Below, piece by piece: positions 16,944-22,915 of a stretch of 64,000 nt of DNA. Position 1 is the stretch's first letter. Each line of letters begins with the position of its first letter. The notes under the pieces were generated by a model, which saw nothing but the letters and a program-made list of their open reading frames with translations, was not told the origin of the DNA and did no database searches. Both the position numbers and the translations under genes were made by a program. The DNA comes from Halomarina salina. Its GTDB lineage: Archaea; Halobacteriota; Halobacteria; Halobacteriales; Haloarculaceae. The stretch spans positions 496,001-560,000 of the forward strand of contig NZ_JALLGW010000001.1 of NCBI RefSeq assembly GCF_023074835.1. The letters are read 5' to 3'.

Positions 16944-17759
16944 ATGACCGACCGCGACCCGCCGACCGGGACCCGCACGCTCACGACGGTACAGCACGCC
17001 TTCGACGTCGTGCGCGCACTGGAGGAGCTGGACGGGGCCGGCGTCACCGAACTCGCCGACCGACTCGGCATGTCGAAGAGCGCGGTGTACAGCCACCTCG
17101 CGACGCTGAAGGAGGAGCGCTTCGTCGTGAAAGAGGGCACCACGTACGAGCTGAGCCTCCAGTTCCTCCTGCTCGGCGAGTACGTCCGCAATCGCCACGT
17201 GCTGTACCGGCACGGTAACCGGGTCCTCGAAGAGCTGGCCGAGGAGACGGGCGAGTACGCCCACCTCGCGACCGAACAGCACGGTCTCGGCGTGAACCTC
17301 TACAAGGTGCGTGGCGAGAAGGCCGTCGGCAGCGACTACCAGACCTCGAAGCTCCAGCGCCCGGACTTCCTCCACTTCTCGGCGACGGGCAAGGCCATCC
17401 TCGCCTCCCTCCCCGAGGAGCGCGTCCACGACATCGTCGACCGCTACGGACTCGAACGGAAGACCGAGCGCACCATCACCGACCGCGACGCCCTGTTCGC
17501 CGACCTCGAACGGGTTCGCGAGCGCGGCTACTCGACGAACGACGAGGAGGAGGTGAAGGGACTCCAGGCGGTCGGCGCACCGGTCCGGGACGCGAGCGGA
17601 CGAGTGCTCGGCTCCATCTCCGTCTCCGGGCCGGTCAACCGCATGCGCGAGGAGGAGTACCACGACTTCGTCATCGAGCGGGTCACCAACGCCGCCAACG
17701 TCGTCGAGGTGAACGTCAACATGGCGGGCACGGCCACGGACCTGCCGACGTTCGACTGA
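16944..17759 (+). CDS. IclR-family transcriptional regulator
   Basis: This 271-residue regulator has an N-terminal winged helix-turn-helix (about 15-75: 'VTELADRLGMSKSAVYSHLATL', 'ERFVVKEGTTYELS') and a C-terminal GAF-like effector domain (about 90-260: 'GNRVLEELAEETGEYAHLA', 'LHFSATGKAILASL', 'APVRDASGRVLGSISVSGP'). IclR proteins bind small metabolites and repress or activate catabolic operons. The gene lies 324 bases behind the amidohydrolase on the same strand, so the importer/hydrolase locus is its likely target. The repeats upstream are candidate operators. A decayed IclR HTH lies less than 400 bases downstream. Confidence 0.92.
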   Translation: MTDRDPPTGTRTLTTVQHAFDVVRALEELDGAGVTELADRLGMSKSAVYSHLATLKEERFVVKEGTTYELSLQFLLLGEYVRNRHVLYRHGNRVLEELAEETGEYAHLATEQHGLGVNLYKVRGEKAVGSDYQTSKLQRPDFLHFSATGKAILASLPEERVHDIVDRYGLERKTERTITDRDALFADLERVRERGYSTNDEEEVKGLQAVGAPVRDASGRVLGSISVSGPVNRMREEEYHDFVIERVTNAANVVEVNVNMAGTATDLPTFD

Positions 17760-18721: not shown

Positions 18722-19357
18722 ATGAACGATTCGCAGGACGACACGGGCGGACGTCCCTCCAGCAAGGTCGCACGCCTCATCGACGAGTACGACCTCGGGT
18801 CGACGTTCGGCGAGCGTCTGGAACGGCGCTGGACGGCCGACGGCAGCGAGCGGATGAGTCTCCGTGACCTTGCCGACCTGTTCAACAGACGTGTCCTCGA
18901 CGCCGCGATGACGCGGGCGGACATGTCGATGGTCGACGGCGAGGTGGACAACTTCTACCGCCTGCTGACAGACGACGACGTGAGCAGTGGGATGCGGACC
19001 GAGGCGCGGAGCCGTCTCGACCGGGAGGGCGTCGACGTCGACCAGCTCGAGCGGGACTTCGTCACGTACCAGGCCATCCGCACCTACCTCAAGGAGTACC
19101 GCGGTGCGGAGTACGAGAAGACGAGCGACGCCGACCGGGTCGAGACGGTCACCGACACCATCCAGCGACTCCGGACCCGGCTGCGCTCGGTCACCACCCG
19201 CAGCCTGGAACAGTTGCGGAACACCGGTCGCATCCGACTCGGGGAGTTCCGCCTGTTCGTCGACGTGGAGGTGCTGTGCGAGGAGTGTGGCGCGCAGTAC
19301 CGCATCGACGACCTGCTGGCGCGCGGTGGCTGTGACTGCGAGTCGAGCGAGGCGTGA
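18722..19357 (+). CDS. rdfA: RdfA-family protein (rod-determining factor)
   Basis: A 211-residue haloarchaeal protein. The N-terminal part (about 14-130) has the RdfA pattern 'SKVARLIDEYDLGSTFGERLERRW', 'ERMSLRDLADLFNRRVLDAAM' and 'VSSGMRTEARSRLDREGVDVDQLERDFVTYQAIRTYL' (each quoted only in part). A helical stretch follows, and a small zinc-ribbon-like end has C186-x2-C189 and C204-x-C206. In Haloferax volcanii RdfA is required for rod cells and its gene sits beside an SMC-like gene. Here the SMC-like gene also lies next door, in convergent orientation. The name rests on my recognition of the family, without a search. Confidence 0.75.
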   Translation: MNDSQDDTGGRPSSKVARLIDEYDLGSTFGERLERRWTADGSERMSLRDLADLFNRRVLDAAMTRADMSMVDGEVDNFYRLLTDDDVSSGMRTEARSRLDREGVDVDQLERDFVTYQAIRTYLKEYRGAEYEKTSDADRVETVTDTIQRLRTRLRSVTTRSLEQLRNTGRIRLGEFRLFVDVEVLCEECGAQYRIDDLLARGGCDCESSEA

Positions 19358-19518
19358 CAGTCGTACGTTTGTTATGCGGCCGCGCAGTCGGTCGATTGTC
19401 GAGGTGACCCGGCGACCGCGAGTGACGACGAGTTGGTGAGGTGCGGCGGGGCAGCGAGAGACGGCAGCGCGGCGAGAAGCAGGGAGAGCGGAGCGAGAGT
19501 GAGCGGTGTGGTGGCCCC

Positions 19519-21465
19519 TCAGATGTCGGTGATGCGGGTGTACTCGTCGTCGAGCGCCTGCGCGTCTTCGGGGAGGAGCGCGACGACGAGGAACTCCGCG
19601 TAGTCGGCGATGTAGGCGACGAGGTCGGCGATACGCTCGGAGTCGATGGCCTCCAGCGAGTCGAGCAGGACGAACGGCACCGTCTCGTGGAGGTCGTGGA
19701 CGAGGTAGCCCGCGAGGCCGAACACCAGCCCCGTCACCTCCCGCTCGGACTCGCTGAGGTGGTCGACGGTGTCCTCGTACGTCGCACCCGACGCCGTCGA
19801 CCGGACGACGTGGAGTTCGAACATGCTCTTGTCCACCTTCCGCCGGCCCTCCCGGACCGTGCGCTCGACGCGTTCGATCCAGATGCGTTCGAGGTTCTGG
19901 TAGTCGAGGATACCGAGCACGGCGTCCATGTGGTCGTTGAACTGCTCGATGGCACCCGCTTCGAGCTGGTCGATGCGGGTGCGGAGGTCGGTGAGTTCCT
20001 CGGTGAGCTGGTCGCGCTGGTCGCGGAGCTGGTCCTCCTCGGCGAGGCGGTCCTCCACGGTCGCGATGCGGTCGGTGACATCGTCGAGGTCCGACTCCAG
20101 ACGACCGAGTTCGAACTCCAGTTGGTTCGCCTCCCGGTGGAGGTCGAGGATCTCGCTGAAGTCCTCCGATTCGAGCGACTCGACCTCCTCCTCCAGGGAC
20201 TCGATCTCCTCGTTCAGCTCCTCGCGGTCCTCGCGGAGGGACTCCAGCGCCTCGCGACGCCGGTCCAGTTCGTCGGTCACGTCCGCGAGACGGCGCTCGA
20301 CGTTCTCGCGCTGGCGCTGCTGTTCCTCGCGTTCGCGCTGGGTGGCCTTCAGGTCGTCCAGGTCGTCCTCGATGCCGCGGATGGTCTCCAGCTTCTCCTT
20401 GCGCAGGTCGCGGAGGTGGTCGAGCGTCGACTCGATGCTGTCGCTCTCGACCGTCGAGCCACAGGTCCAGCAGACCACGCCGTCGTCGGCGACGAGCTGG
20501 TCGGTGACCGAGCCGTCGGTCTCCTCCTCCCGGAGGGCGCTCCCGACCGTGTCGTCCCCGCCCTCGAGCATCTCCTCGTTGAACCCGATGACGTTCTGGA
20601 GCTCGCTGATGTCGGCTTCCAGGGCCTCCTTGCGCTGGCGGAGGCGCGTTATCTCGCCGTCGAGCTCCTGGTGCTCGCCCATCGGCGTCTCGGGGAGGTC
20701 GTCGCGCTCCGCCTCCAGTTCGCGGCGTTCGCTCGTCAGCGACTCGATGCTCTCCTGCTGGACGTCGATGTCAGAGCGGATGCGCTCGGCGTCCGAGCGT
20801 CGGTTCCGGAGGTCGTCGAGCCGCGACTCGAGTTCGCGTTTCTCCTCCTGGGTCTCGCCCACGTCGGCGTCCTGGTCGGCGATCTCCTCTTCCTTCTCGG
20901 CGAGTTCGGCACGCTTCTCCTCGATGTCGGTCTCGAGGCTCGTCCGTCGCTCTTCGAGGGAGGGGAGGTCGTCCTTCAGCTCCTCCAGCTCCTCCAGTTC
21001 GTCGTCGAGACGGTCCCGTTCCGCCTCGAGGTCTCGAATCTCGGCCTGGATGGCGTCGGTGTCGACCGGCCGCATGATGAGCTCGCGGAGGTCGGCGCTC
21101 TGGGCGACCGCCTGCCGGGCGTCGTTCGATTCGAGGAGGAACGCGAAGAGGTCGGCGACCGTCGCGTCGTCGAGGTACGGGTCGCCGCCGGCGGAGACGT
21201 TCCCGTTCGACCGTGTGAACGTCCGGACGTACTCGTCGCCGGCGATTTCGAGTTCCGCGTGTCCCTCCTCGGCGTCGCCCTTCAGCGAGGCGTTGTCGCT
21301 CCCCATCGCCGCCATGATGGCCTGCAGGAACGACGTTCGATTGGTCGCGTTGCGACCGGTCAACACCGTCACGCCGGGTGGGATATCCACCGACGTCTCG
21401 TCGATTCCACCGATGTTCCGTGCGTAGACCGAAGCGACGTGCTCCGATGTCTTGACCGCGTCCAT
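19519..21465 (-). CDS. Archaea-specific SMC-related protein (Rad50/SMC-like coiled coil)
   Basis: I start at ATG 21465 (MDAVKTSEHVASVYARNIGG), giving 648 residues. N-terminal ATPase head to about 130, long coiled coil about 140-505, a CxxC zinc-hook-like apex (C332-W-T-C335) and a C-terminal head. The ATPase motifs are atypical. The P-loop position reads GRNATNRTS (37-45), with no GKS/T. The signature reads LSESER (570-575), and the Walker B position VPFVLLDS (596-603) has Ser where the catalytic Glu is expected. Haloarchaeal relatives pair with rdfA genes. It may form a ring or clamp on DNA; whether it hydrolyses ATP is doubtful from sequence. Confidence 0.85.
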   Translation of the reverse strand: MDAVKTSEHVASVYARNIGGIDETSVDIPPGVTVLTGRNATNRTSFLQAIMAAMGSDNASLKGDAEEGHAELEIAGDEYVRTFTRSNGNVSAGGDPYLDDATVADLFAFLLESNDARQAVAQSADLRELIMRPVDTDAIQAEIRDLEAERDRLDDELEELEELKDDLPSLEERRTSLETDIEEKRAELAEKEEEIADQDADVGETQEEKRELESRLDDLRNRRSDAERIRSDIDVQQESIESLTSERRELEAERDDLPETPMGEHQELDGEITRLRQRKEALEADISELQNVIGFNEEMLEGGDDTVGSALREEETDGSVTDQLVADDGVVCWTCGSTVESDSIESTLDHLRDLRKEKLETIRGIEDDLDDLKATQREREEQQRQRENVERRLADVTDELDRRREALESLREDREELNEEIESLEEEVESLESEDFSEILDLHREANQLEFELGRLESDLDDVTDRIATVEDRLAEEDQLRDQRDQLTEELTDLRTRIDQLEAGAIEQFNDHMDAVLGILDYQNLERIWIERVERTVREGRRKVDKSMFELHVVRSTASGATYEDTVDHLSESEREVTGLVFGLAGYLVHDLHETVPFVLLDSLEAIDSERIADLVAYIADYAEFLVVALLPEDAQALDDEYTRITDI

Positions 21466-21572
21466 GGTCGGACTCACGACAGTGGAGTGCAAAAAGGTGT
21501 TGTAAACCCATCGGGAACGAATCCGGAAAGAAAAACACGCAGACTCATTACCCGCGACCTCCTGGAGTCGAC

Positions 21573-21998
21573 ATGGCTCGACTCGAAGGCGTCCCGGTCG
21601 CGGACCTGCTCGACGCACTCGACGCGGCGACGTCCGCGAAGGCGACGAAGCGGTTGATGGTCGCCGTCCTGTACAAACGCGGCCACTCGGTGCCGGTCGT
21701 CGCCGACTGGTTCGGGATGCGCGAGAACACCATCTACGCCTGGTTCGACCGTCTCGAAGCCGAACCAATCGAGCAGGCGGTGCGCGATAGGCCACGTCCC
21801 GGCCGGCCGCCGAAACTCGACGAGAACGAACGACGCGAACTCGACGCGACGCTCCACGAACCCCCCACAGCGGCCGGGTACGACGCGGACGCCTGGTCGG
21901 TGTCGCTCGTTCGGCGACACATCGCCGAGACGTACGACGTGGAGTACACGCACCGACACGTCCGGAACCTCGTGGACGACGCCGGCGTGTCGTCGTGA
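21573..21998 (+). CDS. Stand-alone IS630-type helix-turn-helix protein
   Basis: This 141-residue protein matches the DNA-binding N-terminus of IS630-family transposases: 'KRLMVAVLYKRGHSVPVVADWFGMRENTIYAWFDRLE' (partly quoted, residues about 26-62), the DRPRPGRPPKL linker (72-82), and a second HTH-like part ending in 'HVRNLVDDAGVSS'. The frame stops there, and the following 245 bases show no DDE catalytic domain. It is therefore either a transposase remnant or a domesticated regulator. It is divergent from the SMC-related gene (107 bases apart), a position that suits a local regulator. Confidence 0.75.
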   Translation: MARLEGVPVADLLDALDAATSAKATKRLMVAVLYKRGHSVPVVADWFGMRENTIYAWFDRLEAEPIEQAVRDRPRPGRPPKLDENERRELDATLHEPPTAAGYDADAWSVSLVRRHIAETYDVEYTHRHVRNLVDDAGVSS

Positions 21999-22243: not shown

Positions 22244-22915
22244 ATGAACACAACTCGTCGGTTCGTACTGGCCGCCGGACTGGTCGCCCTCGGCGGTGTC
22301 GCGAGCGTCCTCGCCGCGCCGTCGCTCCCCGACCAGGTGGTCACGCACTGGAACGCCGCGGGCGAACCGGACGGAACGATGGCGAAACTCCCGGCTCTCG
22401 CGCTGATGCCGCTCCTGTCGGCGTTCCTGGTGGGCCTGTTCGCCGTGATTCCGCGTCTCGACCCGCTCGGTGAGAACATCGGCGAGTTCCGGCCGTACTA
22501 CGACTGGTTCGTCGTCGTCTTCGCGGCGTTCATGCTCCTGGTCCACCTCGGAACGCTGGCGTTCAACCTCGGCTACGACGTCGACATTACGCAGGTCGTC
22601 CTCGCGGGCGTCGCCCTGCTCTTCTACTACGTCGGCGTGTTGCTCGGCCACGCCGAACGCAACTGGTTCGTCGGCGTCCGGACGCCGTGGACGCTCAGTA
22701 GCGACGAGGTGTGGGCTCGGACCCACCGGCTCGCCGGTCGGCTGTTCAAACTCACCGCGCTGGTCTCGCTGGTCGGCCTCCTAGTCGGCGACTACGCGGT
22801 GTACTTCCTGCTCGTGCCCGCACTGGCGACCGCTGCGGTCACCGTCGGCTACTCCTACTACCTCTACGAGCGCCTCGAACGCGCCGGGGAGCTATCGCCG
22901 AACTCCGGCCTCTGA
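22244..22915 (+). CDS. SdpI-family membrane protein (DUF1648 + SdpI)
   Basis: A 223-residue protein with about six membrane helices. The N-terminal half is DUF1648-like: after the first helix comes 'LPDQVVTHWNAAGEPDGTMAKL' (about residues 28-49). The C-terminal half has the SdpI pattern 'YYVGVLLGHAERNWFVGVRTPWTLSSDEVWARTHRLAGRLF' (quoted in part, about 125-165). In Bacillus SdpI gives immunity to the SdpC toxin and signals to a repressor. In archaea the role is unknown. It is a single gene with an AT-rich upstream region (TTGCGGTTATTTATTTCAAA near 22150) that probably holds its promoter. Confidence 0.88.
   Translation: MNTTRRFVLAAGLVALGGVASVLAAPSLPDQVVTHWNAAGEPDGTMAKLPALALMPLLSAFLVGLFAVIPRLDPLGENIGEFRPYYDWFVVVFAAFMLLVHLGTLAFNLGYDVDITQVVLAGVALLFYYVGVLLGHAERNWFVGVRTPWTLSSDEVWARTHRLAGRLFKLTALVSLVGLLVGDYAVYFLLVPALATAAVTVGYSYYLYERLERAGELSPNSGL

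Follow-up and report, generated by a model that had tools for sequence, protein, structure and literature searches.

The genome of Halomarina salina contains a gene of the rod-determining factor A (RdfA) family beside a gene encoding an archaea-specific SMC-related protein (ASRP) whose two catalytic ATPase residues are replaced, as in most haloarchaeal members of its family; the RdfA-linked ASRPs of Methanosarcinaceae and Methanoperedens have both residues. The RdfA-ASRP pairing has already been published (PMC10869688), and what we describe here is a further occurrence of this known pair, in another genome; it is the motif loss, together with the pairs of the methanogens, that makes it worth following. 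Our preferred reading, to which we assign a probability of roughly 0.55, is that the two proteins form one unit in which ASRP may be a hooked, Rad50-shaped scaffold or clamp with little or no ATPase activity, and RdfA its adaptor. That RdfA and ASRP constitute one functional unit is, taken alone, very probable.

Deletion of either rdfA (HVO_2174) or sph3 (HVO_2175) locks Haloferax volcanii in the disk form, and 42 of the 54 RdfA genes and 42 of the 50 genes for SMC-like proteins in 24 haloarchaeal genomes are adjacent (Schiller 2024; PMC10869688). H. volcanii is the only species in which RdfA is known to be needed for rod shape (PMC10869688). The contribution of SMC-like proteins to cell shape is a standing question in the cell biology of archaea. 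Should the SMC-like partner of haloarchaea be unable to hydrolyze ATP, motor models such as loop extrusion would be out, and scaffold or clamp models would be in. This distinction lends itself to study by point mutation, as a tractable organism is available.

The RdfA-ASRP pair and its distribution

The stretch of DNA analyzed (the window) is 64,000 nucleotides long. Within it, rdfA (positions 18722 to 19357, + strand) encodes a protein of 211 amino acids that matches the Pfam profile PF21811 over its full length (positions 1-195 of 195; 274.7 bits, curated cut-off 27; E 5.8e-82). The ASRP gene (19519 to 21465, - strand; 648 amino acids from the ATG at 21465) is convergent with rdfA, and its product, a member of the Sph/coalescin family, matches the whole of the ASRP profile NF045487 (positions 1-593 of 593; 707.7 bits, curated cut-off 300). 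ASRP was computed on 19522-21468, so that the residue numbers given below carry one extra residue relative to this ATG. A preliminary description had recognized an RdfA protein and a convergent gene for an SMC/Rad50-like coiled coil at this locus, and the profile matches bear out both assignments. In RefSeq, such pairs on named plasmids are labeled "rod-determining factor RdfA" and "archaea-specific SMC-related protein".

The convergent 3' ends of the two genes are separated by 161 bp (19358 to 19518), in which a terminator-like signal was looked for and none was found. On its other side, the ASRP gene is separated by 107 bp from a divergent ORF encoding a solo IS630-type helix-turn-helix (HTH) protein of 141 amino acids (21573 to 21998, + strand), a neighbor that is probably outside the unit. 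Together, the three genes span 3.3 kb. A whole-genome profile search detected one copy of RdfA and one ASRP above the cut-off, the other matches to the ASRP profile being SMC, Rad50 and other coiled-coil proteins. Since the single RdfA and the single ASRP of the genome adjoin, their adjacency is more than chance. The same two families are adjacent in H. volcanii, but the Halomarina salina pair differs from HVO_2174/HVO_2175 in being convergent. The likeness to RdfA/Sph3 is at the family level, and the pair may be the orthologue or another paralogue pair.

Among 392 genomes of the order, 332 contain both families, 8 RdfA only, 1 ASRP only and 51 neither; the two together are thus present in about 85% of the sampled genomes. 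Scored at the distance of 5 kb that the preliminary description had proposed, an rdfA gene accompanies 65 of the 70 haloarchaeal ASRP genes in a sample drawn evenly from the phylum, nearly always within 300 bp; three ASRP-like matches (L109-L111) were left out of this survey because they are Rad50 beside Mre11. The view that the pairing is conserved thus holds. All four orientations occur among the 65 pairs (RdfA followed by ASRP, 34; ASRP followed by RdfA, 15; convergent, 9; divergent, 7). Orientation changes 13 times on the ASRP tree, compared with 33 times for shuffled labels; it is conserved within clades, and the Halomarina salina pair falls in a clade with the convergent orientation.

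The distances in the RdfA and ASRP trees are correlated (r = 0.93), and none of 999 permutations was as good. When partners were shuffled within the 16 genomes that contain at least two pairs, the mean r was 0.68 and none of 2000 shuffles reached the observed value. The link is looser from RdfA to ASRP than from ASRP to RdfA: a sample of 44 genomes contains 23 solo RdfA copies, indicating that an ASRP next door is not needed by every RdfA. Given all four orientations together with matching partner trees, co-transcription alone does not explain the linkage. Convergent and divergent pairs are not simple operons, and it therefore appears that selection maintains the linkage and the matching of the two genes on other grounds. 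The simplest explanation would be a direct RdfA-ASRP complex, although linkage and co-evolution can also arise in a shared pathway without contact. The physical unit that the preliminary description had envisaged gains plausibility from the adjacency in all four orientations and from trees that co-vary paralogue by paralogue.

The pair was also found outside haloarchaea, at seven distinct loci in Methanosarcinaceae and Methanoperedens. Three genomes of methanogen families in the phylum-wide sample (L099, L100 and L102) have the ASRP gene followed by rdfA; the weakest Pfam RdfA score at these three loci is 22 bits and the next 26.4, for a cut-off of 27. Scores well above the cut-off were obtained at independent loci of Methanosarcina sp. 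UBA10923 (55 bits), Methanosarcinaceae UBA9310 (53 bits), Methanosarcinaceae E21 bin 6 (43.5 bits) and Methanoperedens nzgw24 (45 bits), and the RdfA of Methanosalsum natronophilum (L162) is the same as that of L102. These loci indicate that the pairing reaches beyond haloarchaea into the sister lineage named in 2022. Methanosarcinaceae are mostly coccoid, and the presence of the pair in this family suggests that rod shape was not its original role. The Methanosarcinaceae and Methanoperedens pairs run against the 2022 statement that the genes flanking ASRPs show no consensus (PMC9389158), as RdfA is a consensus neighbor of haloarchaeal ASRPs and is found next to those of Methanosarcinaceae too.

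At all of these loci outside haloarchaea, the pair is followed by a small winged-helix gene. Its length in Methanosarcinaceae is about 160-177 codons, and there it invariably comes after ASRP and RdfA (L099, L100, L102 and L159-L161). ASRPs of other archaeal families (L101, L103-L106 and L108) are encoded in a different operon without RdfA, in which genes for a zinc-finger protein of about 285 aa, an AAA+ ATPase (PF00004; about 245 aa) that resembles IetA/TRIP13 of the defence library, a small protein and ASRP follow each other on one strand. Several of these operons also encode another zinc-finger protein, about 300 aa long. This setting is apparently uncharacterized, and one genome (G411) contains both the RdfA-type and the AAA+-type setting.

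ATPase motifs of ASRP and metal sites of RdfA

Walker A and B motifs have been described as present in ASRPs (PMC9389158), whereas those of haloarchaeal ASRPs are degenerate, a feature that the preliminary description had missed. In Halomarina salina, the Walker A motif reads GRNATNRTS (21331 to 21357, - strand), with Arg replacing the P-loop Lys, and the Walker B motif reads FVLLDS (19657 to 19674, - strand), with Ser replacing the catalytic Glu; the ABC signature region LSESE is located at 19744 to 19758 (- strand). In an alignment of 101 haloarchaeal ASRPs, 88, including that of Halomarina salina, combine an NATNRTS-like Walker A having Arg for Lys with a Walker B of the type hhhDS, and the Walker B Glu is absent from all 101. 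In eleven shorter paralogues, GKS is retained and Walker B has DG or DR; two proteins are intermediate (Lys with DA). The same motif loss is seen in two Haloferax ASRPs and in the H. salinarum protein called Sph2 in the literature (NATGRTS and LLDSLEAID), whose gene, like that of the Halomarina salina ASRP, adjoins rdfA. All seven non-haloarchaeal RdfA-linked ASRPs contain N-A-[ST/A]-G-K-T-S and hhhDE, that is, they keep both Lys and Glu, and these Methanosarcinaceae and Methanoperedens pairs provide an ancestral state with which the haloarchaeal ones can be compared.

Within the main clade, conservation of the replacing residues is 97% or more, which indicates that the sites are maintained and not decaying. 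Moreover, Rad50 and SMC of Halomarina salina both contain GSGKS, and SMC also ALDEVDAFLD; as these proteins of the same genome keep the P-loop, the motif loss is no general effect of halophily or salt. Judged from the motifs, ATP hydrolysis by haloarchaeal ASRPs is probably impaired, being poor or absent, while ATP may still be bound. It is conceivable that the Glu two residues beyond the Walker B Ser (DSLE) takes the role of the base. A search of the open-access literature returned no paper on degenerate Walker motifs of haloarchaeal SMC-type proteins, and the novelty of this observation is not certain.

In the AlphaFold2 model of ASRP (pLDDT 86.8), the degenerate Walker A is situated between the strand formed by residues 32-37 and the helix formed by residues 44-55, the usual place of a P-loop, and the Walker B Ser follows the strand 599-602, again its usual place. 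A sequence search of the PDB with ASRP alone gave nothing useful. Foldseek analysis of the model identified Rad50 as the nearest fold (1.7e-17), and also SMC and Lamassu LmuB (TM 0.40). The Halomarina salina ASRP has the split N-/C-terminal Rad50/SMC head fold of the SMC superfamily in its model and, of the catalytic residues, has neither the Lys of Walker A nor the Glu of Walker B. It also has the hook of its family, a CWTCG sequence in the middle of the coil (CWTC at 20461 to 20472, - strand), and the CxxC is invariant in all 55 aligned ASRPs. Head, coiled coil and zinc hook are shared with Halobacterium Sph1/Sph2 and Sulfolobus coalescin, which belong to the same NF045487 family. Rad50/SbcC and SMC have the head-coil-head fold in common with ASRP, and Rad50 also the zinc hook, but ASRP is 648 aa long, has no recognized Mre11 or kleisin partner and has its ATPase residues replaced.

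The AlphaFold2 model of RdfA (mean pLDDT 92) consists of a helical domain (residues 15-126), a long helix (136-167) and a C-terminal ribbon. The CxxC...CxC cysteines of this zinc ribbon (C186, C189, C204 and C206; codons within 19277 to 19339, + strand, read from the sequence) are at least 90% conserved among 67 sequences. Comparison of the model with the PDB and with viral models gave no match at E <= 0.001 (best E 0.7 and 0.25, respectively), and a sequence search of the PDB with RdfA returned nothing useful. RdfA was considered as a kleisin, a KITE protein or LmuC, and no such fold was recognized, a missing match not being a disproof.

Non-haloarchaeal and divergent haloarchaeal RdfAs contain a second set of Cys/His residues (Cys14, often Cys17, a His at about 122 and a Cys at about 126). 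Among 108 pairs, both halves of this set are present in 24, neither half in 82 and the first Cys only in 2. The set is kept in all seven non-haloarchaeal RdfAs and in all 11 partners of the shorter ASRP paralogues; it is present in 5 of the 88 RdfA partners of Arg/Ser ASRPs and is missing from the group of Halomarina salina. The natural reading is that these residues would form an ancestral metal site that was lost. The set changes three times on the RdfA tree, and with so few events the tie between the loss of this site and the loss of the ASRP residues may reflect shared ancestry alone. Solo RdfA relatives that contain the second set, with no ASRP adjoining, are present in two genomes of another archaeal family (L112 and L113).

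Possible modes of action

In the model that we favor, RdfA and ASRP would most likely form a direct complex. ASRP would be a dimer-forming coiled coil of Rad50 fold with a zinc hook, and its head would keep the ABC fold. With Arg in place of the Walker A Lys and Ser in place of the Walker B Glu, the haloarchaeal protein would hydrolyze ATP poorly or not at all, and would work not as a cycling motor but as a clamp or scaffold, either static or switched by binding. RdfA, with its helical domain, long helix and zinc ribbon, would be the dedicated adaptor that loads or positions ASRP. The target of the clamp may be DNA or the cell cortex, and the output would be rod shape in Haloferax and, for paralogues, also gene conversion. 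We put forward only tentatively the bolder version that haloarchaeal Sph/ASRP proteins are "pseudo-ATPase" clamps that lost catalysis after the split from methanogens and have since been strongly selected as scaffolds, with RdfA as an obligate adaptor, so that a chromosome machine would have turned into a shape determinant.

Published genetics tie the SMC-like partners to both shape and gene conversion (PMC11276520), and ASRP might instead be an active ATPase of chromosome organization or repair whose motifs are unusual yet functional, shape being changed indirectly through defects in the nucleoid or in gene conversion. In favor of such an enzyme, each of the four Sph proteins plays a part in gene conversion, as its deletion cuts survival in the assay, and a double deletion of sph2 and sph4 was not obtainable, the two being synthetically lethal (2024 study; PMC11276520); coalescin (ClsN), of the same family, organizes Sulfolobus chromosomes (PMC9389158), and the nearest fold is that of Rad50. 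We nevertheless consider it rather unlikely, given that Lys and Glu are both replaced in 88 of the 101 haloarchaeal ASRPs and Glu in all of them, that the non-halophile partners keep both, and that deletions of sph2 and sph3 have opposite effects on shape and the same effect on gene conversion (PMC11276520).

It is improbable that the pair is a mobile accessory module for replicon maintenance or Lamassu-like defence that happens to affect shape. Although 127 plasmid records contain RdfA and 113 contain ASRP, with several copies per genome and with ParA beside the pair on two plasmids, ParA homologues are near none of the 65 sampled pairs, RdfA occurs in none of 50,697 phage records, the pair families are as widespread in the order as described above, and deletion has a rod phenotype (PMC10869688). 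A viral origin of RdfA was likewise rejected, the viral contigs having yielded no RdfA and a single weak pattern. LmuB is a close fold match of ASRP, of similar length, and its best match in the defence library, but the SMC part is the only part of Lamassu that matches there; no effector gene is present beside the pair, with no LmuA in 18-23 kb of the window, and RdfA has no fold match to LmuC. The three genes lie close together, and adjacency could in principle be accidental here, with the HTH gene and not RdfA as the functional partner; we regard the probability of this as negligible, because the survey, the co-occurrence of RdfA and ASRP and the agreement of their trees refute it for these two, and HTH homologues are found beside few loci and in varying places.

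Neighboring genes

An IclR-type regulator is encoded upstream of rdfA (16944 to 17759, + strand). Of the 19 genomes in the clade of Halomarina salina, 15 have an IclR gene no more than 3 kb from the pair, compared with 0.2 expected for random placement, the genomes being related and the 15 cases not independent events. The IclRs of this clade (that of Halomarina salina and those of L174-L193) lie on differing sides of the pair and come from different IclR lineages. In the even sample, an IclR gene is found beside 20 of 69 loci, and the IclRs next to the pair are spread over the IclR tree (13 changes, versus a mean of 17.3 and a minimum of 11 for shuffles). A dedicated IclR regulator was therefore rejected, and the scatter points to a recurrent locus type, not a single co-inherited regulator.

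On two haloarchaeal plasmids (NZ_CP054588.1 and NZ_CP085329.1), which were picked near record starts, rdfA and ASRP come immediately after ParA and a small gene, all on one strand. The count for the 65 pairs given above led us to reject a partition link through ParA as a general feature. In Halolamina, this row of genes also includes a second rdfA, which comes after an Lrp/AsnC gene.

Downstream of the HTH gene, an SdpI/DUF1648 membrane protein is encoded at 22244-22915, for which no link to RdfA-ASRP was seen. The HTH protein itself matches positions 2-111 of a 299-residue IS630 transposase model, below the cut-off, and also HTH_32/HTH_29. A full IS630 transposase (HTH plus DDE) was rejected, as only the HTH part is present and no DDE-like reading was seen downstream. 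The preliminary description had counted the HTH gene as a member of the module; the few and variably placed homologues beside related pairs led us to drop it as a third member. The ORF is intact and resembles the N-terminal third of IS630 transposases. Stand-alone IS630-type HTHs of about 140-163 aa without DDE, such as this one and those of L195, L196, L185 and L012, are found in several copies per genome and look intact, as if domesticated.
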